Shown in pieces: positions 27,235 through 39,099 of a DNA stretch of 64,000 nucleotides. Every line of letters begins with the position of its first letter. Positions within the stretch are counted from its first letter, which is position 1. The notes under the pieces were generated by a model. It did no database searches. It was not told where the DNA came from and saw only the letters and a list, made by a program, of their open reading frames with translations. Position numbers and translations under genes: made by a program. Origin of the DNA: an uncultured Tateyamaria sp. (GTDB lineage: Bacteria > Pseudomonadota > Alphaproteobacteria > Rhodobacterales > Rhodobacteraceae); NCBI RefSeq assembly GCF_947503385.1, contig NZ_CANNDO010000002.1, forward strand, positions 744,001 to 808,000, given 5' to 3'.

Positions 27235-27438
27235 ATGGTTATGGTGACACTCATTGGCGTTCTCGTCCTGTTGCTCATTGTGCTGGCAGGTCTCATCTGG
27301 CAGGCGCGCAACATCCTGCGCTTTCTGACGGCGGTGGTGAAATTCAACATCGCGGGCGATGGCCCCATGCAGCGCCTGTTTCCCAACCTCGCCTTTGTCG
27401 GGCTTTTCATCCTCATTCTGACACTGACGTGGTACTGA
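27235..27438 (+). CDS. Small single-/double-pass membrane protein upstream of XpaC
   Basis: Protein of about 67 residues. Residues ~1-25 are a strong transmembrane segment (TLIGVLVLLLIVLAGLIW), a short charged loop with IAGDGPMQRLFPN follows, and a second hydrophobic stretch (LAFVGLFILILTLTWY) ends the chain. ATG 27235 or 27241 could be the start. The stop is 3 bases before the XpaC start, indicating coupling. Its layout parallels the 29-residue membrane peptide before the second XpaC gene. No known family was recognised. Confidence 0.7.
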   Translation: MVMVTLIGVLVLLLIVLAGLIWQARNILRFLTAVVKFNIAGDGPMQRLFPNLAFVGLFILILTLTWY

Positions 27439-27441
27439 CTG

Positions 27442-28305
27442 ATGCGCGTGCCTCACGTTCCGCCGCGGTACACCCCGCCTGATTATGCGCAGTTGAAATT
27501 GCCGTCTGACCCGCGCAATCAGCAGGCGGTTGGGCTGTTGTTTCTGGCAACCCTGCCGCTGGCCTTTTCGATGCTGCACGACCCGACTTGGCAAAGGCTG
27601 CTGACCTGCGGCGGCCTGCTGGGCCTGTTTGGCGGGTCGCTCTATTCCATTTCGCTCGGGCTCAAGGACGCACAGCGCTATGACGGCCAGACCGTGGCCC
27701 GCGCCGCCCGTCTCAAGGGGCGCATCATCGGGTCTGCGGGCATGGGCGTGGCGTCGGGCCTGACGGTCCTGACCCGTGGCGGCGACATCGGGCAGGTCAT
27801 CATGGTGGGCCTCATTGCCGCCGCCCTGTCGGTGGTTGCCTTTGGCCTCGACCCGCTCCGGCACAAGGGGCTCGAGACCGCCGCGCAACGCCAGACCCAC
27901 AAGCTCGATAAAACCCGCAGCCGCGTCGCAGCGCGGATGGCGCGGATCAAAAGCCATGTCACCCCGCTTGCCTGCGCCGAAATCATGCCCCTTCTGAAGC
28001 GTTTCGAGGACGCGGTCGAACAGATGGTGCAGGCCGTCGAACATGACCCCGAGCGGGCGCGGTCCCTGCAAAAGTACCTCGGCGTCTATCTCGACGGCGC
28101 CGAAGAGGCCTCCGCCCGGTTCATCGCAATCTATCGGGGCACCGGGGACATTACGGCGCACCGCCGCTATGTCACCCTGTTGCGCGATCTGGGCGATGCC
28201 TTTGCGAAGCGTGCATATGACTACGCCGAAGAAGGCCGCGCCCGGCTTGACGTGCAAATCGACGTGCTGAGCGAAAGCCTCGCCCGTGAGGCCACGCGGA
28301 GCTAA
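27442..28305 (+). CDS. XpaC-family protein (first copy)
   Basis: Protein of 287 residues from the family named after B. subtilis XpaC (5-bromo-4-chloroindolyl-phosphate hydrolysis). An N-terminal part carries three to four hydrophobic segments (~30-50, 53-75, 95-130). A cytoplasmic helical domain contains the shared KYLGVYLDGAEEAS motif (~residues 212-225) and an IDVLSESLARE ending. The same two motifs occur in the second XpaC copy at 29389. XpaC proteins are genetically linked to TelA (xpaC-yaaN in B. subtilis), as here. Molecular function is not established. Confidence 0.83.
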   Translation: MRVPHVPPRYTPPDYAQLKLPSDPRNQQAVGLLFLATLPLAFSMLHDPTWQRLLTCGGLLGLFGGSLYSISLGLKDAQRYDGQTVARAARLKGRIIGSAGMGVASGLTVLTRGGDIGQVIMVGLIAAALSVVAFGLDPLRHKGLETAAQRQTHKLDKTRSRVAARMARIKSHVTPLACAEIMPLLKRFEDAVEQMVQAVEHDPERARSLQKYLGVYLDGAEEASARFIAIYRGTGDITAHRRYVTLLRDLGDAFAKRAYDYAEEGRARLDVQIDVLSESLAREATRS

Positions 28306-28421
28306 GCCGCACCTGTGCTGACGGGCGCGGAAATTTCCCCCTTGCGCCTGCGCCCCCCTGTCTCAATCTTGGCCTCCAGAAAAAACGAGGCGCGCAACAG
28401 CGCCACCGGGGGGACTACGAC

Positions 28422-29240
28422 ATGGCCGAACTTCTGACGCTCGAAAACGTGGGCAATTTGCTCATGCTGTGCTTTTTGCAGGCGGTTCTGGGTTTCGACA
28501 ACCTTCTCTACATCTCGATCGAAAGCCAGCGCGCGCCGGTGGCGCAACAGGCCGCCGTACGGCGCTGGGGGATTATCCTTGCCGTGGTATTGCGCGTCGT
28601 GCTGCTGTTCACGATGATCCAGCTGATTGATGCCATGGCCGAGCCCTTTGTTGTGCTGGACTGGCAGGGCGTGCTGACCGGAGGCGTGAACTTTGCCACG
28701 GTTGTGTTCATCTTTGGCGGCATCTTCATCATGTACACGGCTGTCAAGGAAATCGGCCACATGCTGACCATCCATGACCTCAGCACCGATGTTGAGGCGA
28801 AATCCGGCAAAACCGCCACACAGGTGGTGCTGCTGATCGTACTGATGAACCTGATCTTTTCCTTCGACAGCGTTTTGTCGGCGCTGGCCATCACGGATGT
28901 GTTCTTTATTCTCGCCACCGCGATCCTGTTGTCGGGCCTTGCGATGCTGCTGCTTGCGGATGGTGTGACGCGCTTTTTGGAAAAGAACCGCATGTACGAG
29001 GTCCTTGGCCTGTTTATCCTGCTGATTGTCGGTGTGGTGCTTCTGGGCGAAGCCGGTCAGGCGGCGGCCCACGCGATGCATGACGACAGCCTCGCCTTGC
29101 GTGTTTTTGGCTACGAGATCATTCCGATGTCCAAAACCACCTTCTACTTCAGCGTCCTGGTTCTGGTCGCCGTGGAGGTGATCCAGTCGGGCTACACACG
29201 CAAACTCAACGCCGAACGCAGAACCGGTGCGCGCCACTAG
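28422..29240 (+). CDS. TerC-family integral membrane protein
   Basis: Seven-helix membrane protein, 272 residues. It has the conserved membrane acidic residues of the family, in VLGFDNLLYISI (helix 1) and LIFSFDSVLSALAIT (helix 4). TerC-type proteins are linked to tellurite resistance and, in other bacteria, to manganese export and metal loading of exported proteins. ATG 28422 lies 116 bases after the XpaC stop. Its place between two XpaC genes and next to TelA ties it to the stress cluster. Confidence 0.92.
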   Translation: MAELLTLENVGNLLMLCFLQAVLGFDNLLYISIESQRAPVAQQAAVRRWGIILAVVLRVVLLFTMIQLIDAMAEPFVVLDWQGVLTGGVNFATVVFIFGGIFIMYTAVKEIGHMLTIHDLSTDVEAKSGKTATQVVLLIVLMNLIFSFDSVLSALAITDVFFILATAILLSGLAMLLLADGVTRFLEKNRMYEVLGLFILLIVGVVLLGEAGQAAAHAMHDDSLALRVFGYEIIPMSKTTFYFSVLVLVAVEVIQSGYTRKLNAERRTGARH

Positions 29241-29295
29241 TTCTGCACGTGCAATGTGCCTATAGTCCGGCGTAGCCAAAGAGGTGGGGACCGAC

Positions 29296-29385
29296 ATGCA
29301 ACCAACAGCTTTTCAGAAGATCGCCTTTGTTGTGCTGATCGCGCTGATGTTCGGCGTGACCACCGGTCTGATAGGAGGGCTCTGA
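29296..29385 (+). CDS. 29-residue membrane peptide preceding the second XpaC gene
   Basis: The reading MQPTAFQKIAFVVLIALMFG, continuing VTTGLIGGL, is one transmembrane helix with a short polar N-terminus. AGAGGTGGGG lies before ATG 29296, and the stop is 3 bases before the XpaC start, so translation of the two is probably coupled. It is too short for normal gene finders. Similar placement of a small hydrophobic protein before the first XpaC copy supports it as a real component. Confidence 0.65.
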   Translation: MQPTAFQKIAFVVLIALMFGVTTGLIGGL

Positions 29386-29388
29386 GCG

Positions 29389-30285
29389 ATGGCCAAACGC
29401 TTTGGCGGCAAATACAGCCCCGACGGTGAGACGCCCGAGGTCGAGGCCCGCCCGGCCTTTGACCGCGCCCGTGTGGACCCGGTCGGCGCGCGCGCCAACC
29501 TGATGTTCCTGCCAGCCGTGCCGATGGTGTTTCTGGCGCTGAACGACGGGGCGGTCGGGCTGGTGCTGGCGCTGGTGGCGGCCGGTGTCCTGACGCTGGG
29601 TGCATGGCTTTTGCGCGAGGGGATGCGGGCCGAGGCCGCTTATCATGAACGCAAGGTGGCGCGCCGCCCTGCCTTGCCACGCAAGCTCGTCGCTGCGCTC
29701 CTCGCTGGTATTGGCATCGGTCTGGCCGCCTACCGGGTTGAACCGGGCCTCATCGCGCCCGCGCTCTTCGGCATTGCAACCGCTGGTCTGCATCTGGCTG
29801 CCTTTGGCTTTGATCCGATGACCGACAAGGGCATGGAGGGGATCGACACCTTTCAGCAAGACCGCGTGGCCCGCGTTGTGGACGAGGCCGAAAGCCATCT
29901 CAACGCCATGACCGACGCCATGAAACGCGCTGAGGACCGGCAGATGGCGACCCGGCTGGAACAGTTCCAGACCACTGCCCGCGACCTGATCCGCACCGTC
30001 GAAGAAGACCCCCGCGACCTCACCGCGGCCCGCAAATATCTGGGCGTCTACCTGCTGGGCGCACGCGATGCGACCATCAAGTTCGCCGACATCTACAGCC
30101 GCACCCGCGACGCACAGGCCAAGGCCGACTACGCGCAGTTGCTGGACGATCTGTCGGAAAACTTTGCCGCCCGCACGCAAAAGCTGCTGAACGATGACCG
30201 CAGCGACCTCAACATCGAAATCGACGTGCTGCGGGACCGGCTGCAGCGCGAAGGCGTGCGTATCGCACCCCAGGACAACAGCTAA
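29389..30285 (+). CDS. XpaC-family protein (second copy)
   Basis: A 298-residue paralogue of the protein at 27442. A charged N-terminus of ~35 residues precedes hydrophobic hairpins at ~40-75 and ~100-140. The cytoplasmic helical domain has ARKYLGVYLLGARDATIKF and the IEIDVLRDRLQREG ending. The two copies are clearly related in the C-terminal half but diverged N-terminally. It is followed 15 bases later by TelA with AAAAGGGAACATC before its start, so XpaC2 and TelA form one operon, as in B. subtilis xpaC-yaaN. Confidence 0.86.
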   Translation: MAKRFGGKYSPDGETPEVEARPAFDRARVDPVGARANLMFLPAVPMVFLALNDGAVGLVLALVAAGVLTLGAWLLREGMRAEAAYHERKVARRPALPRKLVAALLAGIGIGLAAYRVEPGLIAPALFGIATAGLHLAAFGFDPMTDKGMEGIDTFQQDRVARVVDEAESHLNAMTDAMKRAEDRQMATRLEQFQTTARDLIRTVEEDPRDLTAARKYLGVYLLGARDATIKFADIYSRTRDAQAKADYAQLLDDLSENFAARTQKLLNDDRSDLNIEIDVLRDRLQREGVRIAPQDNS

Positions 30286-30300
30286 GTAAAAGGGAACATC

Positions 30301-31506
30301 ATGTCAGAAACAGTTCGTCAAAAGGCTGAAAGCGCCGCCGCACAGGTCGAAGAGGTCACCGCCGTCGTTCTGGCCGAACCCAGTGACGCCAACGCCATCG
30401 TGCCGCTGGCCGAAGCGGACGCGCCCGTGGGTGCCGAAATCCGGTCGCGCATGGGCGAGATCGACATGGGCGACACCAATTCCATCGTGTCCTTCGGCTC
30501 CGCCGCGCAGGCGGAATTGCAGGAAATCAGCCAAGCGATGCTGTCGGACGTGCGCAACAAGGATCTCGGGCCTGCGGGCGACGGCCTGCGCGACATCGTC
30601 ACCACGATCCGCGGCTTTTCCGTGTCCGAACTGGACGTGCGCCGCGAGCGGACATTCTGGGAAAAGCTCTTTGGCCGGGCCGCCCCCTTTGCCAAGTTCA
30701 CCGCCAAGTTCGAGACCGTACAATCCCAGATCGACAAGATCACCGACAACCTGCTGAGCCACGAGCACACGCTGCTCAAGGACATCAAATCGCTCGACCT
30801 GCTCTACGAAAAGACGCTGCAATTCTACGATGAACTGGCGCTCTATATCGCTGCGGGCGAGGAAAAGATCAAAGAGCTGGACGAAACCACCATCCCCGCG
30901 ATGGAAGCCGCCGTCGAGGCCGCCCCCGAAGACCAGCAGGTGATGAAAGCGCAGGAACTGCGCGACATGCGCGCCGCGCGCGACGATCTGGAACGCCGGG
31001 TGCACGACCTGAAACTGACACGGCAGGTGACGATGCAGTCCCTGCCCTCGATCCGTCTGGTGCAGGAAAACGACAAAAGCCTTGTGACCAAGATCAACTC
31101 GACCCTCGTCAACACCGTGCCGCTTTGGGAAACCCAACTGGCGCAGGCCGTCACCATCCAACGTTCGGCCGAGGCCGCCGCCGCCGTGCGCGATGCCAAT
31201 GACCTGACCAATGAACTGCTCACAGCCAACGCCGAAAACCTGCGCGACAGCAACAAGATGATCCGCCAAGAAATGGAGCGCGGCGTATTCGACATCGAAG
31301 CGGTCAAGCAGGCCAATGCGGACCTCATCGGCACCATTCAGGACAGCTTGCAGATTGCCGACGAAGGCAAGGCACGCCGCGCCGCCGCCGAAGAAGAGCT
31401 CAAAAAGATGGAGGCCGAACTGCGCGACACGCTGGCCGCCGCCAAGGCGCGCAAGGATGGTGTTGGCGACAACGCCGCTACCTCCGTGCCCCAAGGGGCC
31501 AACTGA
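30301..31506 (+). CDS. TelA/YaaN-family toxic-anion resistance protein
   Basis: Cytosolic coiled-coil protein, 401 residues, of the TelA (PF05816) family. After a ~95-residue variable N-terminus the conserved core runs from GFSVSELDVRRERTFWEKLFG to the end, almost wholly helical, with heptad-rich stretches (AQELRDMRAARDDLERRVHD; EEELKKMEAELRDTLAAA). Family members protect against tellurite and cell-wall-active compounds by an unknown mechanism. ATG 30301, 15 bases after XpaC2. Confidence 0.94.
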   Translation: MSETVRQKAESAAAQVEEVTAVVLAEPSDANAIVPLAEADAPVGAEIRSRMGEIDMGDTNSIVSFGSAAQAELQEISQAMLSDVRNKDLGPAGDGLRDIVTTIRGFSVSELDVRRERTFWEKLFGRAAPFAKFTAKFETVQSQIDKITDNLLSHEHTLLKDIKSLDLLYEKTLQFYDELALYIAAGEEKIKELDETTIPAMEAAVEAAPEDQQVMKAQELRDMRAARDDLERRVHDLKLTRQVTMQSLPSIRLVQENDKSLVTKINSTLVNTVPLWETQLAQAVTIQRSAEAAAAVRDANDLTNELLTANAENLRDSNKMIRQEMERGVFDIEAVKQANADLIGTIQDSLQIADEGKARRAAAEEELKKMEAELRDTLAAAKARKDGVGDNAATSVPQGAN

Positions 31507-31511
31507 GGCCC

Positions 31512-32465
31512 ATGATCCGCAGGCCGCGTCTCTGGAAAGCGCTGGGTGGCGTTGCCGCCCTCGTCTTTCTTGCGGCCTGCGATATGCCGCCTGTGACCAC
31601 CGATCCGGTGCTCACACCGCGGGCGCGCCCGGACCCTGCGGCAGTCGCACCACCGCCGCCCGTGCGCGCCACCTCAGAACGCAGTGCCGCGTTGCGCAGC
31701 TATCTGGGCGCCGTGCAATCCAGCCAGTTGACCCAAGGTCTGTTGCGGCAGGATGGTGGCGGGCCGGACACCCCGTTTACCGCAACCATGCTGGCGCGCA
31801 ATTTCGAACAGATCGCGTTTTTTGACGAATTCACGCCCACCGGGGAACCCGGCGGCGGCGAGGCCGTGCTGCGCCGCTGGGACATGCCGGTGCGCATTGC
31901 AGTCGCCTTTGGCGCGTCTGTTCCGCCCAGTCAGCGCACGCGCGACACCGCAAACACGCGCAGCTATGCGCGACGGCTGGCGCGGGCGACGGGGCACCCG
32001 ATTGCCATCGCGCCAAACCCGAATTTCTACGTGATTTTCGCCTCCGAGGATGACCGGGGCGATGTGCTGGACGAGGTGGCCGCCCGGCTTGGCAATCCGC
32101 TGACACAATTGCGCAGCCTGTCGCGTGACACCTATTGCGCCGTGGTCGCCTTTGGTGGTGGCACGGGGCGCGCGACGACCACGGCCGCCGTGGCCGTGGT
32201 GCGTGCCGAAAATCCCGATCTTCTGCGGCTCAGTTGCATCCACGAAGAGATTGCCCAAGGGCTTGGCCTGCCCAATGACAGCCCCGCCGCGCGGCCCAGC
32301 ATCTTTAATGATGATGACGAATTTGCCCTGCTCACCGACCATGACGAGGCGCTGCTGGGCATGTTGTATGACGCCCGTCTGACAACCGGCATGGACCGGG
32401 CCGAGGCCCGGCCCATCGTGCGGCAACTGGCCGCCGAACGGACGGGCGAGGCGCTCACAAACTGA
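31512..32465 (+). CDS. DUF2927 lipoprotein
   Basis: Exported lipoprotein of 317 residues. The signal peptide (KALGGVAALVFLAAC) ends with lipobox Cys23, then a proline-rich linker follows. The DUF2927 domain covers ~85-295 with the signature CIHEEIAQGLGLPNDSPAA, a possible metallopeptidase-like HEExxxxLG segment. It follows TelA by 5 bases and is probably co-transcribed. DUF2927 has no assigned function. Confidence 0.85.
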   Translation: MIRRPRLWKALGGVAALVFLAACDMPPVTTDPVLTPRARPDPAAVAPPPPVRATSERSAALRSYLGAVQSSQLTQGLLRQDGGGPDTPFTATMLARNFEQIAFFDEFTPTGEPGGGEAVLRRWDMPVRIAVAFGASVPPSQRTRDTANTRSYARRLARATGHPIAIAPNPNFYVIFASEDDRGDVLDEVAARLGNPLTQLRSLSRDTYCAVVAFGGGTGRATTTAAVAVVRAENPDLLRLSCIHEEIAQGLGLPNDSPAARPSIFNDDDEFALLTDHDEALLGMLYDARLTTGMDRAEARPIVRQLAAERTGEALTN

Positions 32466-32550
32466 TCCGCCCGCAGGGGCGTAAACCAAATATCCACCAT
32501 GACCCGCTTAGAACGACCCGCAAACAAGCAGCGCAGGTTCAGGAGCGTCC

Positions 32551-33756
32551 ATGGTCGCGTCTCTCAACGGCATCATCTTTGACCAGGTCTATGGTGACAA
32601 TACCGGCGGGGCCGAGTTTGACACCGACGGCGACGGCACCGCCACGCAGGAGGACGAATTTGTCTCGTTCACCAACACAACCGGCGCGCCCATTGACGTG
32701 TCCGGCTGGCAGATTTGGTCCGATGCGTCCGGCGCGGGGGCACCGGATGGTCCGCAGGACGGACTCTATCACACCTTTCCGCCGGGCACTGTGATCGCGC
32801 CGGGTGAAACCCTCTACATTATCAACGAAATTAGCGGCACGCCCCCCGCATGGGCACAAGAGGCGTCCGAAGGCGGGACCGAATCCGGTGCTGGCGGGAC
32901 CAACACCAACTTTTTGAGCGAAGGCGACGCCAGCAACTCGGAATCCGTGGCACTGGTTGATCCAAGCACTGGCGATTTTCTGGTGTTCAATATGGAAAGC
33001 AGCTCCAGCGACTTTTCCGAATTTGACGGTGGCAGCACCGGCAGCAATCCGGGGCTTGCAGGCTTTCCCGGCTCAAACATGATTGCCGAGATCGGTGGCG
33101 CGTCAGTGCGCGAGGATCAGGACGCGGGGTTCTCCTATCAGTACAACGCCACCACCGACAGCTACGAATACAACACCGTCTACGTGGCCTGTTTCGCCGC
33201 TGACACATGGATCGACACCCCCGATGGCCGCCGCCAGATCACCCATCTGCGTCCCGGTGATCTGGTTCTGACACAGGACAACGGCCCACAGCCGGTGTCG
33301 TTGCTGCTGCACTACTGCCTGCGGCTCGATCAGCCCGCGACCGCGCACCTGCGCCCCATCGCGATCAAACCCGGCAGTCTCGGGTCCTCCCTGCCGGACC
33401 GCCCATTGACCCTGTCGCCACAGCACCGCGTCCTGCGCACTCTGCCCGGCGGCCAAGAGGTTCTGTGCCCCGCCAAAGGGCTGCTGGACCACCCCGGCAT
33501 CCGCGTCAAACGTGGCTTGAAGCGGATTGGATATTTCCACCTGCTCCTGCCCCGGCACGAGGTGATCTTTGCCAACGGATTGCCGGTAGAAAGCCTGTTT
33601 CTGGGGGATTACGGCCTGCGCCGCGTGCACCCCGGCCTGCGCATCGCGCTGGAACAGATTTGGCAACCGGACGCGACACACGCGCCCGCGCGCCCCTTTG
33701 TCGGCGCCAGCGCGATGAGGCGGATCGCCGCGACTTCCCCTTTTCCCGCCTTGTGA
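32551..33756 (+). CDS. LTD-Hint domain protein, probable self-processing secreted protein
   Basis: A 401-residue protein without a classical signal peptide. Residues 1-~175 form an acidic, Gly/Ser/Asp-rich lamin-tail-type (LTD) beta domain: GIIFDQVYGDN, then FVSFTNTTGAPIDVSGWQIW. Residues ~212-370 are an Hint_2 domain starting at CFAADTWIDTPDG, with the splicing-type nucleophile Cys and the LSPQHRVLRT block containing the histidine. This combination suggests cleavage at the Cys to release the LTD part, and Ca-rich type I-like export; both are inferred. There is no C-terminal extein Asn/Cys pair, so cleavage rather than splicing is expected. Confidence 0.82.
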   Translation: MVASLNGIIFDQVYGDNTGGAEFDTDGDGTATQEDEFVSFTNTTGAPIDVSGWQIWSDASGAGAPDGPQDGLYHTFPPGTVIAPGETLYIINEISGTPPAWAQEASEGGTESGAGGTNTNFLSEGDASNSESVALVDPSTGDFLVFNMESSSSDFSEFDGGSTGSNPGLAGFPGSNMIAEIGGASVREDQDAGFSYQYNATTDSYEYNTVYVACFAADTWIDTPDGRRQITHLRPGDLVLTQDNGPQPVSLLLHYCLRLDQPATAHLRPIAIKPGSLGSSLPDRPLTLSPQHRVLRTLPGGQEVLCPAKGLLDHPGIRVKRGLKRIGYFHLLLPRHEVIFANGLPVESLFLGDYGLRRVHPGLRIALEQIWQPDATHAPARPFVGASAMRRIAATSPFPAL

Positions 33757-33816
33757 TCCATGTATTAATCGCCGCCGCAACAGGCCGCGCGTCGCGCGGA
33801 CAGAATGGGGGCCAAT

Positions 33817-34914
33817 ATGGGCATTTTCGACTTCCTCTCCGGCGAGTTTATCGACGTCATCCACTGGGTCGACGACAGTCGCGACACCATGGTCTGGCGG
33901 TTCGAACGTGAGGACCACGAGATCAAGTATGGTGCCAAGCTGACCGTGCGCGAAGGTCAGGCCGCCGTGTTCGTGCACGAAGGGCAACTGGCCGATGTGT
34001 TCACCCCCGGTCTCTATATGCTCGAGACCAACAACATGCCGATCATGACGACCCTGCAACACTGGGATCACGGCTTCAAAAGCCCGTTCAAGTCCGAGAT
34101 CTACTTCGTCAACACCACCCGGTTCAACGGTCTGAAATGGGGCACCAAGAACCCGATCATCTGTCGCGACCCCGAATTTGGCCCCGTGCGCCTGCGCGCC
34201 TTTGGCACCTATTCGGTCCGGGTCACCGATCCGGCCAAATTCCTCGTCGAAATCGTCGGCACCGACGGCGAATTCACCATGGACGAGATCAGCTTTCAGA
34301 TCCGCAACATCATCGTGCAGGAGTTTTCGCGCACCTTGGCCCAATCTGGCATCCCCGTGCTCGACATGGCCGCGAACACCCGCGAACTTGGCCAGCTTGT
34401 CGCCAAGGAAATCTCCGACCAGATCGCTGAGTACGGGCTGATGCTGCCGGAACTCTATATCGAAAACATCTCGCTCCCCCCCGCCGTCGAAGAGGTGATG
34501 GACAAACGGTCCTCCATGGGCGTGATCGGCAATCTGAACGAATACACCCAGTTTCAGGCCGCCGAGGCTTTGGGCCGCGGTGGTGCTGCCGCCGCCACGA
34601 TGGAGGCCGGGCTGGGTGCCGGGCTTGGGATGCAAATGGGGCAGGCCATGGCCGCCGGGGCCGCCGCGCCGCAACCCAGACGCGCCGCCCCACCGCCCCC
34701 GCCAGTCGAACATGTCTGGCACGTCGCCGAAAACGGCGAGACCAAGGGACCGTTTTCCAAGGCGCAACTGGGCCGCATGGCAGGCGCGGGCGAACTGGGG
34801 CGCGACACCTATGTCTGGACCGCCGGTCAGGACGGCTGGATGAAGGCCGAGGACGTCACCGAACTGGCCCAGCTTTTTACCATCCTGCCGCCGCCCCCGC
34901 CCCCCGGCATCTGA
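33817..34914 (+). CDS. SPFH-domain protein with C-terminal GYF_2 domain
   Basis: Protein of 365 residues. The SPFH/band-7-like core occupies ~30-235 (MVWRFEREDHEIKYGAKLTV, EGQLADVFTPGLYMLETNN, FGTYSVRVTDPAKFLVEIVG). A Gly/Ala linker with a PPPPP tract follows, and then a GYF_2 domain at ~300-350 (WHVAENGETKGPFSKAQLGR, WTAGQDGWMKAEDV). The family is annotated as virion core-like but is chromosomal; its B. subtilis relative YdjI is in the pspA-ydjGHI membrane-stress operon. The start is ATG 33817 with GGGGG before it; ATG 33805 would add four residues. Confidence 0.88.
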   Translation: MGIFDFLSGEFIDVIHWVDDSRDTMVWRFEREDHEIKYGAKLTVREGQAAVFVHEGQLADVFTPGLYMLETNNMPIMTTLQHWDHGFKSPFKSEIYFVNTTRFNGLKWGTKNPIICRDPEFGPVRLRAFGTYSVRVTDPAKFLVEIVGTDGEFTMDEISFQIRNIIVQEFSRTLAQSGIPVLDMAANTRELGQLVAKEISDQIAEYGLMLPELYIENISLPPAVEEVMDKRSSMGVIGNLNEYTQFQAAEALGRGGAAAATMEAGLGAGLGMQMGQAMAAGAAAPQPRRAAPPPPPVEHVWHVAENGETKGPFSKAQLGRMAGAGELGRDTYVWTAGQDGWMKAEDVTELAQLFTILPPPPPPGI

Positions 34915-34936
34915 ACCACATACAATCTGCACCACC

Positions 34937-34968
34937 AACGGCCGCGCCCTGACACAGGCGCGGCCGTT
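34937..34968 (+). terminator. GC hairpin after the SPFH gene
   Basis: A perfect 12-bp stem (AACGGCCGCGCC / GGCGCGGCCGTT) with an 8-base loop begins 23 bases after the stop codon. There is no U-tract, so it may act as an mRNA end or a weak terminator separating the SPFH gene from the ArsR unit. Confidence 0.6.
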
Positions 34969-34998
34969 GCACATTCGGCTGCACCCATTGACTCCGTC

Positions 34999-35030
34999 GT
35001 AAATATGTAAAAAGGTAATTACATGTTTAC
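34999..35030. promoter_or_regulatory. Probable ArsR operator overlapping its own start codon
   Basis: This is an inverted repeat with 12-base arms, GTAAATATGTAA and TTACATGTTTAC (one mismatch), separated by the 8 bases AAAGGTAA. The ArsR start codon (35023) lies inside the right arm and its ribosome-binding AAGG in the central loop. The dyad is AT-rich in a GC-rich neighbourhood. Bound repressor would block both transcription and translation start. Confidence 0.75.
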
Positions 35031-35379
35031 AGATTCGGAAATGGACCGCGTGTTCGCGGCCTTGTCCCATACCAACCGGCGCGACATGCTGGACCTGCTG
35101 CGCGACACGCCGGGGATGAGCGTCGGACAGCTTGCCGCGCATTTCGACGTGACGCGCATCGCGGTGATGAACCACCTCAAGGTTCTGGAACAGGCCCAGC
35201 TGATCATCAGCGAACAGGACGGGCGCACGCGCCGCCTCTACCTCAACGCGGTTCCCATTCAGGCGATTTACGAACGCTGGACCGACACATTCTCCGCTCA
35301 CTGGCTGGATCGGATGAGCCTCATCAAATCCGTGGCCGAAGCCGCGGCGCGCAAAATCGACAAGGACCCGGACGCATGA
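35023..35379 (+). CDS. ArsR-family regulator
   Basis: Winged-helix repressor of 118 residues (VFAALSHTNRRDMLDLLRDT, FDVTRIAVMNHLKVLEQAQL, QDGRTRRLYLNAVPI). No metal-binding ELCVCDL-type cysteines are present, so it belongs to the ArsR group that partners SRPBCC (AHSA1) proteins rather than to metal sensors. It is preceded by, and starts inside, a large palindrome that is its probable operator. Its last 4 bases overlap the SRPBCC start. Confidence 0.92.
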   Translation: MFTDSEMDRVFAALSHTNRRDMLDLLRDTPGMSVGQLAAHFDVTRIAVMNHLKVLEQAQLIISEQDGRTRRLYLNAVPIQAIYERWTDTFSAHWLDRMSLIKSVAEAAARKIDKDPDA

Positions 35380-35891
35380 CCAACCCAACCACCAACATCA
35401 ATCGCGTTCTGATCAACGCCCCCGTGGAAACCGTCTGGAACACTTTGGTCAAAACGGACGAGGCGCTGCCGTTCTTCTTTGGCGGTGTCTGCCAAACGCA
35501 GGACGGCCTGAAACCCGGCGCGCGCTACCGCATGGTCAGCGCCAACCGCAAGGTTGCGATGGTCGTGGGCGAGGTCCTGCGGTTCGAGCCGCCACATGTC
35601 TACGCCCACACCTTTACCATGACGAATATCGACGAACCGCCCGTCACCGTGACCTACACGCTGGTGGAAAAGGACGGCGGCACCGAATTTGAACTGCGGA
35701 TCGACAATTTGATCCCCGGCAGCAAGCTGGCCAAGGAAATGGTGTCCGCCCAAGGGTTCATCGCCAGCAACCTCAAGGCCCTGTGCGAAACCGGGCGCCC
35801 CGCCTTTACCGGGCGCATGGTCGGCCTGCTCGGTCCGGTCTTTGCCCGCCTCGCCAAACCCGCCCAAGCCGTTGAACACTGGCCCCTCTGA
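35376..35891 (+). CDS. SRPBCC (AHSA1-like) ligand-binding protein
   Basis: Soluble 171-residue protein of the START-like fold: INRVLINAPVETVWNTLVKT at the N-terminus, then KPGARYRMVSANRKVAMVVGEVLRFEPP and the C-terminal helix. The ArsR-AHSA1 gene pair is a widespread arrangement in bacteria, thought to sense or bind hydrophobic ligands. The ATGA overlap with arsR shows co-translation. Ligand unknown. Confidence 0.88.
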   Translation: MTNPTTNINRVLINAPVETVWNTLVKTDEALPFFFGGVCQTQDGLKPGARYRMVSANRKVAMVVGEVLRFEPPHVYAHTFTMTNIDEPPVTVTYTLVEKDGGTEFELRIDNLIPGSKLAKEMVSAQGFIASNLKALCETGRPAFTGRMVGLLGPVFARLAKPAQAVEHWPL

Positions 35892-35920
35892 CCCCTTTTC
35901 CAACCGCAAACAAAGGAGAC

Positions 35921-36283
35921 ATGATGATGACAACCCAAACCCTGCCCCGCTGGCCCGGCATCGTGGCCCCGGTCGCAGCCCTCTGGTACGCCTTTGGCCT
36001 GTCACAGGCCATCATCAGCTACGTCGCCGGTCCGGGCGCCGCCCCGGTGTTGATCTGGCTGGCCTACGGTCTGGCGTGCAGTGCGGGCCTTGTCGGCGCG
36101 GCGGCCCTGTTCATTGCGCCCGCGCGCGCCGCCGCCGCCTTTGCCGTGTCGCTGGTGTGTGCGGTGATCTATTTCGGCTGGCTATACGCCTATGGCACGC
36201 CCGCCGCCGAAGACTATGGCATTGGCGCGCTTGTCATGGCCGTGACCCTCACCCTGATGCTGGTCGCACGCCGCCTGCGCTGA
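35921..36283 (+). CDS. Four-helix membrane protein, third gene of the ArsR unit
   Basis: A 120-residue protein with four hydrophobic segments (~10-33, 40-62, 67-90, 95-117). It starts at ATG 35921 right after AAGGAG, 29 bases past the SRPBCC stop, so it probably belongs to the same operon. The layout resembles small DoxX-like or sugar-transporter-like membrane proteins that often accompany ArsR-AHSA1 pairs, but I cannot assign a family. No catalytic motif seen. Confidence 0.75.
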   Translation: MMMTTQTLPRWPGIVAPVAALWYAFGLSQAIISYVAGPGAAPVLIWLAYGLACSAGLVGAAALFIAPARAAAAFAVSLVCAVIYFGWLYAYGTPAAEDYGIGALVMAVTLTLMLVARRLR

Positions 36284-36401
36284 CCCATCCCCGGTCAGGC
36301 CGCCCGCCCGTGCTGCGTGGCCTGACGACAGAAGGGGGCGGGCACGTCCCTGTGATCGCACGGCCCTTGACAGCGCCGCCCCTGACCTCACCATCGCGGG
36401 G

Positions 36402-36938
36402 ATGAGACTTCCGACACGACGCACGGCCCTGAAGTGGCTGCATTGGATCATGGTGCCCCTGTTTGTCTGGTTCCTGATCGTCACACCGGATGTCGTGGTC
36501 CCCTTTGGTCCCACCGCGTTCCAGATCCACTCGACCCTTGCGCTTGTCTTTGTCTCGCTCAGCCTTGCGTGGTTTGCCGACATGCTGCGGCGCGGCCTTG
36601 CCAGCCGCCCCGGCCCCAAGCTGACGGGCCGTCTGCGCACGCTCCACCGGGTCATGCACCTGACCCTGATCTGGGGATTGTTCTTTGTGGCGCTGACCGG
36701 GTTCCTGCTTGGGCTGACCTCGCCCATTCTGCTCAAGGCCGGTGGGTTCCTGCCCATTGCCCCGCCGCTGGGTCTGCGCGCGGCGAACGAGATTGTGGGC
36801 CTTGTGCATATCGTCGAATTCTACGCGCTTGGCGTGGTGGCGGGCGGGCACGCGGCCTTTCACATCTGGCGCCACTACCGGTTGCGTGACAACGCTTTGC
36901 GCATCATGGCACCGAAAAAGCTGCATAAATTCCTGTGA
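36402..36938 (+). CDS. Cytochrome b561-like membrane protein, paralogue 1
   Basis: Four-helix membrane protein of 178 residues with the bacterial cytochrome b561 layout. Candidate heme histidines are His14 (KWLHW), FQIHSTL, RTLHRVMH, VHIVEFY and the AFHIWRH cluster. Shared marks with the two genes that follow are RTALKWLHW at the start, GLASRPGPKLTG between helices 2 and 3, and a C-terminus DNALRIMAPKKLHKFL. Expected to pass electrons in the inner membrane; partners unknown. The gap before it (36284-36401) shows no gene. Confidence 0.85.
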   Translation: MRLPTRRTALKWLHWIMVPLFVWFLIVTPDVVVPFGPTAFQIHSTLALVFVSLSLAWFADMLRRGLASRPGPKLTGRLRTLHRVMHLTLIWGLFFVALTGFLLGLTSPILLKAGGFLPIAPPLGLRAANEIVGLVHIVEFYALGVVAGGHAAFHIWRHYRLRDNALRIMAPKKLHKFL

Positions 36939-36990
36939 CGACAGGCGTTTAGGCCAAAGGATTATGGCAAATTGCGGCTGCGATCCCCAT

Positions 36991-37015
36991 CCCTTGGGAA
37001 CACCAAACCCAAGGG
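36991..37015 (+). other. Hairpin just before the second b561-like gene
   Basis: The inverted repeat CCCTTGGG - 9 bases - CCCAAGGG lies 12 bases upstream of ATG 37028. Its 3' arm contains the AAGGG that would be the nearest ribosome-binding sequence, so folding could reduce translation of paralogue 2. Confidence 0.4.
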
Positions 37016-37027
37016 AACACATCGCTG

Positions 37028-37555
37028 ATGACACGTCGTACCGCACTCAAATGGCTCCACTGGATCGCCTTTGGCCTGATGGCCTATTTCTTCTTTGTCG
37101 AGCCCGAGAATGTGCGCCAGCTTGGCGGTGCGGCACTGGCCACCCATGCGGGCATGGGCACGATCCTTGCCATTGTCGTGGCGCTCTGGATGACCATGTA
37201 TCTGCGCAAGGGGCTGGCCAGCCGGGCTGGTCCCAAGCTGCCCGGATGGGCGCGCGCGACGCATGGGGTGATGCACCGCGCGATGATGTGGGGCAGCTTT
37301 GCCGTGGTGCTGTCGGGTGCGCTGGCGGGTTTCGCGGCCCCCTATGCAATCGCGCTGTTTGGGGTGATCCCGCTGTTTCCGGGGCGCGGCGGCAAGGGCG
37401 TGCACGACACGCTCACGGAACTGCACGAGCTGACCTTTGATGTCATGCTGATCGGCATCGCGGTGCATGTGGTCTTTCACCTCTGGCGGCATTATGCTGT
37501 GCGCGACAACGCATTGCGCATTATGGCACCCAAGGTGCTTCACAAATATCTTTGA
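37028..37555 (+). CDS. Cytochrome b561-like membrane protein, paralogue 2
   Basis: A 175-residue paralogue of the preceding protein: TRRTALKWLHWIAFG at the N-terminus, His in LATHAGM, GLASRAGPKLPG, RATHGVMHRAMMWG, TELHELTF, AVHVVFHLWRH and the ending DNALRIMAPKVLHKYL. All His positions of paralogue 1 are kept. The ATG at 37028 is 89 bases after paralogue 1. Tandem placement and the near-identical C-terminus show local duplication. Confidence 0.85.
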   Translation: MTRRTALKWLHWIAFGLMAYFFFVEPENVRQLGGAALATHAGMGTILAIVVALWMTMYLRKGLASRAGPKLPGWARATHGVMHRAMMWGSFAVVLSGALAGFAAPYAIALFGVIPLFPGRGGKGVHDTLTELHELTFDVMLIGIAVHVVFHLWRHYAVRDNALRIMAPKVLHKYL

Positions 37556-37567
37556 GGACAGCGTGCC

Positions 37568-37981
37568 ATGCGCCGCACCGCCACCATCACACTGCACTGG
37601 CTCAGCCTCATGGCTCTGGTTCTGCTGGTGGCCGGTGGGCCGGTGCCTGTGCTGGCTTGGGCCTTTGGGCTGACGGGTCTTGGCTTGTGCGCCATTGCGG
37701 CGGCGCGGGGGCTGAAGAACGGCCCCGGCCCCAAGCTGACGGGCGCGTTGCGGGTGGCCCACCCATGGCTCAGCCGGGCGATGTACGCCGCGCTTGCGGC
37801 CACGGCGGCGGCGACGCTGTGGCACGTGGCGGTTGGTCCCGTGGCGGGCCTCCAGCGGCTGCACTTTTATCTGATGTCCGCCGCCAGCCTGCACGCCATC
37901 TTTCATCTGTGGCGGCACACCGCCCTTGGCGACGGCGCGCTGCGGCGCATCACCCCCACCTCCATGCATGGTGTATTATGA
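37568..37981 (+). CDS. Cytochrome b561-like membrane protein, shortened paralogue 3
   Basis: A 137-residue third copy. It keeps the start RRTATITLHW, the GLKNGPGPKLTG loop, RVAHPWLSRAMY and the IFHLWRHTALGDGALRRITP ending. It has lost about 40 residues, including the second-helix histidine, and the second histidine of the MH pair has become a different residue. It may have lost one heme or act only as a partner. It overlaps the zinc-ribbon gene by 4 bases (ATGA). Confidence 0.8.
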   Translation: MRRTATITLHWLSLMALVLLVAGGPVPVLAWAFGLTGLGLCAIAAARGLKNGPGPKLTGALRVAHPWLSRAMYAALAATAAATLWHVAVGPVAGLQRLHFYLMSAASLHAIFHLWRHTALGDGALRRITPTSMHGVL

Positions 37982-39099
37982 GCGATCTGCCCCCCCTGTC
38001 TCCCGCAGACCCCACCAGCGAGCACCGCTTTCCCTGCAACAATTGCGGGGCCGATTTCCGCTATGATCCCGCCAGCCGCAGCCTGACCTGCGACCACTGC
38101 GGCAACACCGGCCTGATCGAAGGGACGGGCACCGGCGGCCCCGCCGCCCTGACCGAACTGGACTACCGCACCGCCCTGACCGCCGATCTGCCCTATGCGG
38201 AGATCGAGGAAACCCGCGTCTCCAAATGCCCCAATTGTGCCGCACAAGTGGAATTCGACGCCGACATCCACGCCACCGAATGCCCGTTCTGCGCCACGCC
38301 CGTCGTGACCGACACCGGCGCGCACCGGCACATCAAACCCAAGGGCGTGCTGCCCTTTGCGCTGTCCGAACGCGAGGCGCGCGCGGCGATGACCACATGG
38401 CTGGGCCGCCTCTGGTTCGCACCCTCTGGCCTGCAGGACTACGCCCGCAAGGGCCGCGCGATGCAGGGCATCTACGTGCCCTACTGGACCTTCGACGCAG
38501 ACACCCGCAGCGCCTATACCGGCGAGCGCGGCACCGTCTATTACGAGACGCAGACCGTGGTGCGCGACGGAAAGCGCGAACAGGTCCGCGTGGCCAAGGT
38601 CCGCTGGCAACGCACCCGTGGCAAGGTCGCGCGCTTTTTCGACGACGTGCTGGTGCTGGCCTCCAAATCCCTGCCCAAACGCTACACCGACGCGCTTGAG
38701 CCGTGGGACCTGTCCGAAATGGAACCCTACGCGCCCGAATTCCTTGCCGGGTTCCGCGCCGAAGGCTACGCGGTCGAACTCGAAGAAGGGTTCGAACACG
38801 CCCGCGGCTACATGGACCGGATCATCGCCCGCGATATCAAATTCGACATCGGCGGCGACCGCCAGCGCATCCACTCGGTCGACACGAAACTGGGCAAGAT
38901 CACCTTCAAACACGTGCTGCTGCCGGTCTGGCTGGCCGCCTACAAGTACCGCGGCGAAACCTACCGCTTTGTGGTCAACGGACGCACTGGCAGGGTGCAG
39001 GGCGAACGCCCGTGGTCAGCATGGAAAATCGCCGTCGCCGTCATCATCGGCCTGATCGTGGCCGCTGGCATCGGCTTTGCCGTGGCGGCAAACCAATGA
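37978..39099 (+). CDS. Double zinc-ribbon membrane-anchored protein (TFIIB-zinc-finger-like)
   Basis: A 373-residue protein. Two zinc ribbons lie at the N-terminus: Cys20/23/38/41 (FPCNNCG...CDHCG) and Cys84/87/102/105 (CPNCAAQ...CPFCATP). A beta-rich central domain (~115-340; YVPYWTFDADTRSAYTGERG and HVLLPVWLAAYKYRGE) is followed by one C-terminal membrane helix (~346-370). The same layout is seen in YdjG-like zinc-ribbon proteins found next to SPFH proteins, and an SPFH gene is 3 kb upstream here. It overlaps both neighbours by ATGA. Confidence 0.85.
   Translation: MSDLPPLSPADPTSEHRFPCNNCGADFRYDPASRSLTCDHCGNTGLIEGTGTGGPAALTELDYRTALTADLPYAEIEETRVSKCPNCAAQVEFDADIHATECPFCATPVVTDTGAHRHIKPKGVLPFALSEREARAAMTTWLGRLWFAPSGLQDYARKGRAMQGIYVPYWTFDADTRSAYTGERGTVYYETQTVVRDGKREQVRVAKVRWQRTRGKVARFFDDVLVLASKSLPKRYTDALEPWDLSEMEPYAPEFLAGFRAEGYAVELEEGFEHARGYMDRIIARDIKFDIGGDRQRIHSVDTKLGKITFKHVLLPVWLAAYKYRGETYRFVVNGRTGRVQGERPWSAWKIAVAVIIGLIVAAGIGFAVAANQ

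Follow-up and report, generated by a model that had tools for sequence, protein, structure and literature searches.

The locus considered here, from an uncultured Tateyamaria sp., brings together gene families known from separate operons of Bacillus, and the question that it raises is whether its genes constitute one system or a set of neighbors. We analyzed a 64,000-nucleotide stretch of contig NZ_CANNDO010000002.1 (positions 744,001 to 808,000; hereafter the window), in which all genes of the locus lie on the plus strand at 27235-39099. The original prediction had interpreted two XpaC paralogues, TerC, TelA, a DUF2927 lipoprotein, an LTD-Hint protein, an SPFH-GYF_2 protein, and a double zinc-ribbon membrane protein, together with an interposed ArsR/SRPBCC unit and three b561-like proteins, as a single envelope-stress machine. 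The gene calls for TerC, TelA, DUF2927, LTD-Hint, SPFH-GYF_2, ArsR, and SRPBCC stood, each with a Pfam match on the plus strand, as did both XpaC paralogues, one of them with a weak match. Two of the three b561-like proteins also have a Pfam match, but the third open reading frame (ORF), encoding 120 amino acids (aa), has none; the zinc-ribbon protein does carry its ribbons and a predicted helix, but starts at about 37978 rather than 37552. As judged by comparison with relatives, the window is one genome whose conserved operon is split by insertions, and the evidence argues strongly that XpaC-TelA and the SPFH/zinc-ribbon pair are one repeated Rhodobacteraceae locus, retained or lost jointly.

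TelA was found in 142 of 159 Rhodobacteraceae genera, surveyed with one genome each and with the window's own genome counted. To define the neighborhood, 20-kb stretches around TelA from 60 other TelA-positive genera were analyzed by profile searches; their choice among the 142 was not random but favored large contigs and complete assemblies, and two stretches (L126 and L135) are shortened by contig ends. Besides TelA (60), matches were obtained for XpaC in 58 stretches, SPFH in 55, the zinc-ribbon protein in 55, and DUF2927 in 54. One further xpaC, in L119, was missed by the neighborhood profile and recovered with a better one, and in L142 xpaC lies 200 kb away from TelA. The xpaC and telA genes are adjacent, with matches to PF10112 and PF05816 over cut-off, and the core genes are mostly on the same strand, the zinc-ribbon gene being on the opposite strand in two genera. 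Median gaps are 23 bp for xpaC-telA, 5.5 for telA-DUF2927, 28 for DUF2927-SPFH, and 160 for SPFH-zinc-ribbon. Co-occurrence of the core genes is far above chance, but that of the inserted genes is not: LTD-Hint, ArsR, SRPBCC, and the 120-aa ORF were found in none of the 60 genera by single-sequence phmmer (E 1e-5). LTD-Hint and ArsR/SRPBCC are therefore best regarded as insertions, and the composite originally described as an operon plus passengers. The idea of one united locus thus survives in part, as XpaC-TelA with SPFH/zinc-ribbon recurs, but membership of Hint, ArsR/SRPBCC, the 120-aa ORF, and the cytochromes, which vary freely across genera, is not supported. Collectively, these data strongly suggest a core unit of a 29-aa ORF, XpaC2, TelA, SPFH-GYF, and the double-zinc-ribbon protein, with DUF2927 between the two pairs.

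Linkage alone is not decisive, because flanking genes are also well kept (rluA in 52 and dtd in 39 of the 60 stretches, with MBL in 20 and ceramidase in 16). Co-absence provides a separate line of evidence. A strong SPFH match was present in 59 of 60 TelA-positive genomes and in 1 of 18 TelA-less Rhodobacteraceae genomes (Fisher 5e-15), and a zinc-ribbon match in 59 of 60 and 3 of 18, respectively (Fisher 3e-12), both values being uncorrected for kinship; the TelA-less set comprises 17 genomes from the genus survey and one from the Pseudomonadota draw described below. XpaC over cut-off was detected in none of the 18, with one partial match below cut-off in G133, and G427 has a Band_7_1 match below cut-off. 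The exceptions with a zinc-ribbon match are G162, which also has the strong SPFH match, G138, and G065, and their runs start 110, 516, and 252 bases, respectively, from a contig start, so that TelA may be missing from these assemblies only. The parts also persist together where they have been separated. G061 has DUF2927-SPFH-zinc-ribbon about 35-40 kb from xpaC-telA, G023 has SPFH-zinc-ribbon on another contig than xpaC-telA, and in a genus outside the 60 (G379 and G403) TelA and the zinc-ribbon gene are both present, either on different contigs or separated by about 750 kb. On the Paracoccus ferrooxidans replicon pFER4, telA-DUF2927-SPFH-zinc-ribbon stands among unrelated genes in a stretch without XpaC.

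The TelA-less genomes also reveal the standing of DUF2927, which exceeds the cut-off in 11 of them. Six of these 11 were inspected at the locus. In five (G132, G104, G427, G145, and G033), DUF2927 is still beside rluA, with XpaC-TelA gone on one side and SPFH-zinc-ribbon gone on the other, and in the first three terC lies between DUF2927 and rluA; G132 additionally keeps an xpaC relic and dtd. For G145 and G427, the absence of SPFH and zinc-ribbon is taken from whole-genome searches because the contigs end soon after DUF2927. In the sixth genome, G152, DUF2927 is away from rluA. A quick tree of DUF2927 and rluA gave five changes for these six genomes, two of them forced by well-supported branches, although 13 of its 49 inner branches are starred and the TelA-less label is no more clustered than shuffled labels. 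Since genomes that lost the rest keep DUF2927, we regard it as a close neighbor rather than an obligate part of the locus, despite its frequency among the 60 stretches. An initial reading with TerC and DUF2927 in the core was overturned by their retention in TelA-less genomes.

Alignment of the DNA upstream of xpaC2 brought out a short ORF ending at the xpaC start, which the original gene list lacks. We filtered for ORFs of 20-45 aa with a transmembrane (TM)-like stretch, defined by hydrophobicity, and an end within 15 nucleotides (nt) of xpaC, and such microprotein-type ORFs were present at 131 of 138 loci compared to 6 of 690 in shuffled sequence. Three genomes contribute a locus to each set; over the 136 distinct loci, 135 of which went through the filter, the count is 128, and by genus it is 57 of 59. 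Typical forms begin MSxTGLQKLAFfLLV and MSgTglQKiAYvaLI, and 105 of the 131 ORFs carry a common core motif. The codon-position entropies of 1.43, 1.06, and 1.57 are consistent with coding, though modestly so. No microprotein was detected before DUF2927 in the six TelA-less stretches. The window has a similar arrangement before xpaC1, where the preceding ORF is a hydrophobic one of 67 aa.

CTAG occurs upstream of the microprotein at 93 of the 131 loci, and in many loci it belongs to a promoter-like element of the form TTCCCCCTAGC-N18-YTANNTT, the spacing of which is identical in 76 of 78 anchored copies when the second half is sought at 20-27 nt only. The relaxed bipartite form is present at 80 of 136 distinct loci and the strict form at 52 of them; in the genera set, the strict form is found in 10 of 59. 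Because only 20 of 59 genera carry even the relaxed form, the motif marks part of the family around the window's genus. Within the fetched stretches, the strict form was found 53 times at this position and never elsewhere. In 16 whole genomes, the strict form with one mismatch allowed yielded 13 sites, distributed over 13 genomes and all located 1157-1217 bp upstream of the TelA match; no second strict-form site was detected, compared to 2 hits for a reversed control pattern; as 12 of these 16 genomes were preselected for carrying the motif, the informative part is the absence of a second site. In the window, a weaker copy of the element, CTAG-N19-CTA at 29237-29262, overlaps the terC stop codon, placing TerC before it and the core behind. 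A search for plain sigma-70 promoters found 3, compared to a mean of 2.2 in shuffles, and none is the conserved element. TelA-less G132 has a similar CTAG-N19-CTA motif about 150 nt upstream of DUF2927, and the stretch concerned (L220) also contains the xpaC relic.

The proteins of the second pair resemble those of a known system. The zinc-ribbon protein has eight cysteines invariant in 38 aligned sequences and a predicted C-terminal helix, and its two ribbons, further domain, and TM segment correspond to the YdjG type, an assignment made via an Enterococcus homologue that adjoins SPFH and TPM, i.e., the YdjGHI set, and not via the YdjG sequence itself. A PDB sequence search with the zinc-ribbon body matched the ribbons only, and the Foldseek hits, for the most part pore-forming proteins and secretins, all fell short of E 0.001. 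The SPFH protein has the Band_7_1 domain of the YdjI type, with GYF_2 in place of the C-terminal zinc ribbon. As in pspA-ydjGHI of Bacillus subtilis, an SPFH protein thus stands beside a double-zinc-ribbon membrane protein, but the window locus lacks PspA and TPM/YdjH and has XpaC-TelA, DUF2927, and the microprotein instead. Among the locus proteins scanned, there was no match to PF04012 (PspA/ESCRT-III) or to TerD-type families; the window's genome has one PF04012 match, on contig C1 beside a TetR gene, and one TPM match, at C2:328843 and far from the locus. It also encodes a second, distant zinc-ribbon paralogue (199 bits; G000:C2:280089-281102). No PDB sequence relative of TelA was found at E 0.01. 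When eight locus proteins were searched with PADLOC, one chance-level zinc-ribbon match was returned (E 0.0095), and a defense system was rejected.

The first pair likewise has counterparts. XpaC adjoins TelA in xpaC-yaaN, llmg_1115-telA1, and lmo1966-lmo1967 of Bacillota, but the window pair is joined with SPFH, zinc-ribbon, and a small ORF before xpaC. The sigma-W-controlled yceCDEFGH operon of B. subtilis has a TerC (YceF), a gene that is only occasional in the Rhodobacteraceae locus, and its YceH is presumably a TelA. The telA locus of Rhodobacter sphaeroides, from the same bacterial family, likewise has a TelA and is a putative counterpart. That XpaC-TelA and SPFH/zinc-ribbon pairs are separate in Bacillus, as originally noted, is borne out, with xpaC-yaaN and pspA-ydjGHI being distinct operons (PMC3498285). 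Since these two and yceCDEFGH are all listed in the sigma-W regulon (PMC3498285), the families of the operon are spread over three Bacillus operons of one regulon. In Lactococcus, an overload of membrane proteins induces xpaC-telA, and cells with the pair deleted grow somewhat less well under that condition (PMC3139573); a TelA mutant of Listeria reportedly shows a 4-fold higher sensitivity to nisin and a 2-fold higher one to tellurite (cited in PMC12791056); and xpaC is raised in an Enterococcus liaR mutant (PMC10269926). A YpeB/NTF2-like domain is described as a mark of the YdjG type (PMC11237479). A literature search, with most subscription papers outside its reach, found no account of such an operon. 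Nor did it find a paper that treats TelA, XpaC, and SPFH together, one on DUF2927, one that combines any two of SPFH proteins, toxic anion resistance, TFIIB-type zinc ribbons, and DUF2927, or one on Rhodobacteraceae, tellurite, and TelA.

The DUF2927 protein has a predicted fold of the matrix-metalloprotease (metzincin-like) type, in which the HExxHxxGxxH zinc site is replaced by EExxQxxGxxN. These positions are conserved in 255 aligned homologues (E245 and E246 in 254, Q249 in 253, and N255 in 252), as is a lipobox-like Cys23, read by eye (254). The motif was aligned by eye, with the LGL match as its anchor, and loop 262-269 is modeled poorly; with respect to matrix metalloproteases and karilysin, Ile264 occupies the Met-turn Met position, again by eye. 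No significant PDB sequence match was found for DUF2927 (best E 0.35). A second DUF2927 family was observed elsewhere in genomes (L210, L211, L212, L213, and L216) as frames of 465-553 aa, four of the five with CLHEExxQxxGPxND, and G034, whose TelA stretch has no DUF2927 match, has three tandem weak DUF2927-like ORFs (L218 4038-6644).

To determine how far the association extends, we drew 299 Pseudomonadota genomes, 15 from Rhodobacteraceae and 284 from elsewhere. The 15 were concordant for TelA and zinc-ribbon (14 with both, 1 with neither). The 29 non-family TelA stretches, from 28 genomes, had a zinc-ribbon match in no case and an SPFH match in one, as determined with Rhodobacteraceae profiles that distant SPFH or zinc-ribbon proteins may escape, and 6 of the 284 genomes had weak zinc-ribbon matches, in addition to those with the strong matches given below. 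In Suttonella sp. R2A3 (L187 3895-10934), the gene after XpaC-TelA encodes a GYF_2 protein whose weak match to SPFH does not reach the Pfam cut-off; downstream, on the same strand as these genes, are three lytic transglycosylase genes. The SPFH partner in other pairs ends in GYF_2 in Vibrio and Tsukamurella and in a helix-turn-helix (HTH) in Comamonas. On a Vibrio coralliilyticus plasmid (L205 1980-2849), the SPFH-zinc-ribbon pair is divergent from a cluster with a TIR-domain protein.

Based on the data presented above, we consider it probable that the Rhodobacteraceae operon microprotein-xpaC-telA-(DUF2927)-SPFH/GYF-zinc-ribbon encodes one inner-membrane maintenance assembly under envelope stress. 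By analogy with the Gram-positive systems, an envelope-stress role is likely, and the best reading of the operon may be as a PspA-less membrane-stress scaffold in which XpaC-TelA, not PspA, would partner the SPFH-zinc-ribbon pair. The zinc-ribbon protein would be anchored in the membrane through its C-terminal helix, with the ribbons cytosolic, and would recruit the SPFH protein in the way that YdjI is recruited by YdjG/YdjH in Bacillus; the SPFH protein could then form a scaffold beneath the membrane and attract partners through its GYF domain and proline tail. Membrane-located XpaC and helical, soluble TelA might act on damaged membrane in PspA's place, with the microprotein tuning XpaC, while DUF2927 would be a lipoprotein that faces the periplasm and whose metzincin-like site is altered, and TerC, where present, may supply Mn to exported proteins. 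Several observations weigh against this reading. Background synteny is high, as seen for rluA and dtd. Outside the family the modules are independent, with TelA over cut-off in 31 and a strong zinc-ribbon match in 13 of the 284 genomes and both in only 2, on different contigs. In G193, SPFH and zinc-ribbon are missing although xpaC-telA-DUF2927 is retained. G102, which has no TelA, gave a partial match to Band_7_1 that exceeds the cut-off (27.9 bits), and the promoter-like motif is restricted to a minority of the genera. Moreover, the PspA-family gene elsewhere in the genome makes replacement of PspA by TelA an analogy only, and for this reason full replacement is not claimed. A bolder form, a dedicated PspA-independent membrane-repair machine (microprotein, XpaC, TelA, SPFH-GYF, and tail-anchored zinc-ribbon protein) with a private single-site promoter in part of the family and a lipoprotein with a re-liganded metzincin site as periplasmic readout, is possible but doubtful.

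Other explanations account for parts of these data. The operon could confer tellurite or oxyanion resistance, with envelope effects secondary, as suggested by the TelA and TerC family names and by R. sphaeroides telA, which was named a chromosomal tellurite-resistance element (PMC6955997 citing O'Gara 1997). However, the presence of TelA in most genera of the family suits a general function, and the Gram-positive relatives respond to peptides and membrane overload; we judge this explanation unlikely. Plain synteny, in which slow rearrangement holds unrelated neighbors together, would explain the retention of rluA and dtd, yet 10 of the 12 genera without sense-strand rluA in the stretch keep xpaC, telA, SPFH, and zinc-ribbon, co-occurrence persists without linkage, and both pairs have been lost around retained DUF2927 and TerC, leaving this account about as unlikely.

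The locus might also be a protein-export or metalation checkpoint, in which TerC loads Mn into exported proteins, DUF2927 is a client or sensor, and SPFH and TelA organize the site. The TerC proteins of Bacillus, which metalate exported proteins, are co-immunoprecipitated with SecDF, FtsH, and flotillins (PMC10550928), and the predicted DUF2927 fold is metal-site-like, with Glu, Gln, and Asn at the ligand positions, but TerC is present in only 16 of the 60 genera and both TerC and DUF2927 remain where the core is lost, and the proposal seems improbable. The inclusion of Hint, ArsR/SRPBCC, and the cytochromes in a single machine is favored by their position inside the run on the same strand; with Hint, ArsR, SRPBCC, and the 120-aa ORF absent from all 60 genera and b561 (one or more) present in 13, it is very improbable.

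The coordinates of the locus are collected in the table below. Among accessory genes, TerC, where present, is on the same strand and upstream of xpaC, and a second XpaC occurs in 4 of the 60 genera. The two hydrophobic ORFs of 67 and 137 aa were also sought in 80 named loci, the closest of 292 relatives, with TelA identities to the window of up to 91%; homologues were found in 1 of the 80 loci and 0 of the 60 genera for the former, and in 29 of the 80 and 5 of the 60 for the latter.

Features of the locus, in window positions
Feature	Position	Strand	Match or remark	Standing
67-aa hydrophobic ORF	27235..27438	+	directly before xpaC1	accessory
xpaC1, second, divergent XpaC-like	27442-28305	+	PF10112, weak, 32.2 bits (cut-off 29.8)	accessory
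terC	28422-29240	+	PF03741, 124.8 bits	accessory
promoter-like element CTAG-N19-CTA	29237-29265	+	weak copy of relatives' TTCCCCCTAGC-N18-YTANNTT; overlaps terC stop codon	
29-aa TM-like ORF	29296-29385	+	ends 3 nt before xpaC2; not in original gene list	core
xpaC2	29389-30285	+	PF10112, 104.2 bits	core
telA	30301-31506	+	PF05816, 366.8 bits	core
DUF2927, likely lipoprotein	31512-32465	+	Pfam, 197.0 bits	usual neighbor, separable
LTD-Hint_2 protein	32551-33756	+	LTD 43.9 and Hint_2 140.4 bits; between DUF2927 and SPFH	passenger
SPFH-GYF_2 protein with proline tail	33805-34914	+	Band_7_1 340.6 and C-terminal GYF_2 73.1 bits	core
ArsR-type HTH regulator	35023-35379	+	Pfam	passenger
AHSA1/SRPBCC protein	35376-35891	+	Pfam	passenger
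120-aa hydrophobic ORF	35921-36283	+	no Pfam match	passenger
b561-like membrane protein 1	36402-36938	+	Ni_hydr_CYTB, 44.5 bits	accessory
b561-like membrane protein 2	37028-37555	+	Ni_hydr_CYTB, 36.2 bits	accessory
137-aa hydrophobic ORF	37568-37981	+	precedes zinc-ribbon gene; not in original gene list	accessory
double zinc ribbon, long beta-strand domain, and C-terminal helix	~37978..39099	+	YdjG-like	core

To our knowledge, no mechanism has been established for TelA, XpaC, or DUF2927, although all three families are widespread. The joint gain and loss of XpaC-TelA and SPFH-zinc-ribbon points to proteins worth testing together, with the microprotein added to them, and the promoter-like element, a single site in each genome of those members that have it, is a possible reporter. 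If the proposed assembly is real, families named for tellurite resistance would be tied to the SPFH/PspA branch of membrane repair.

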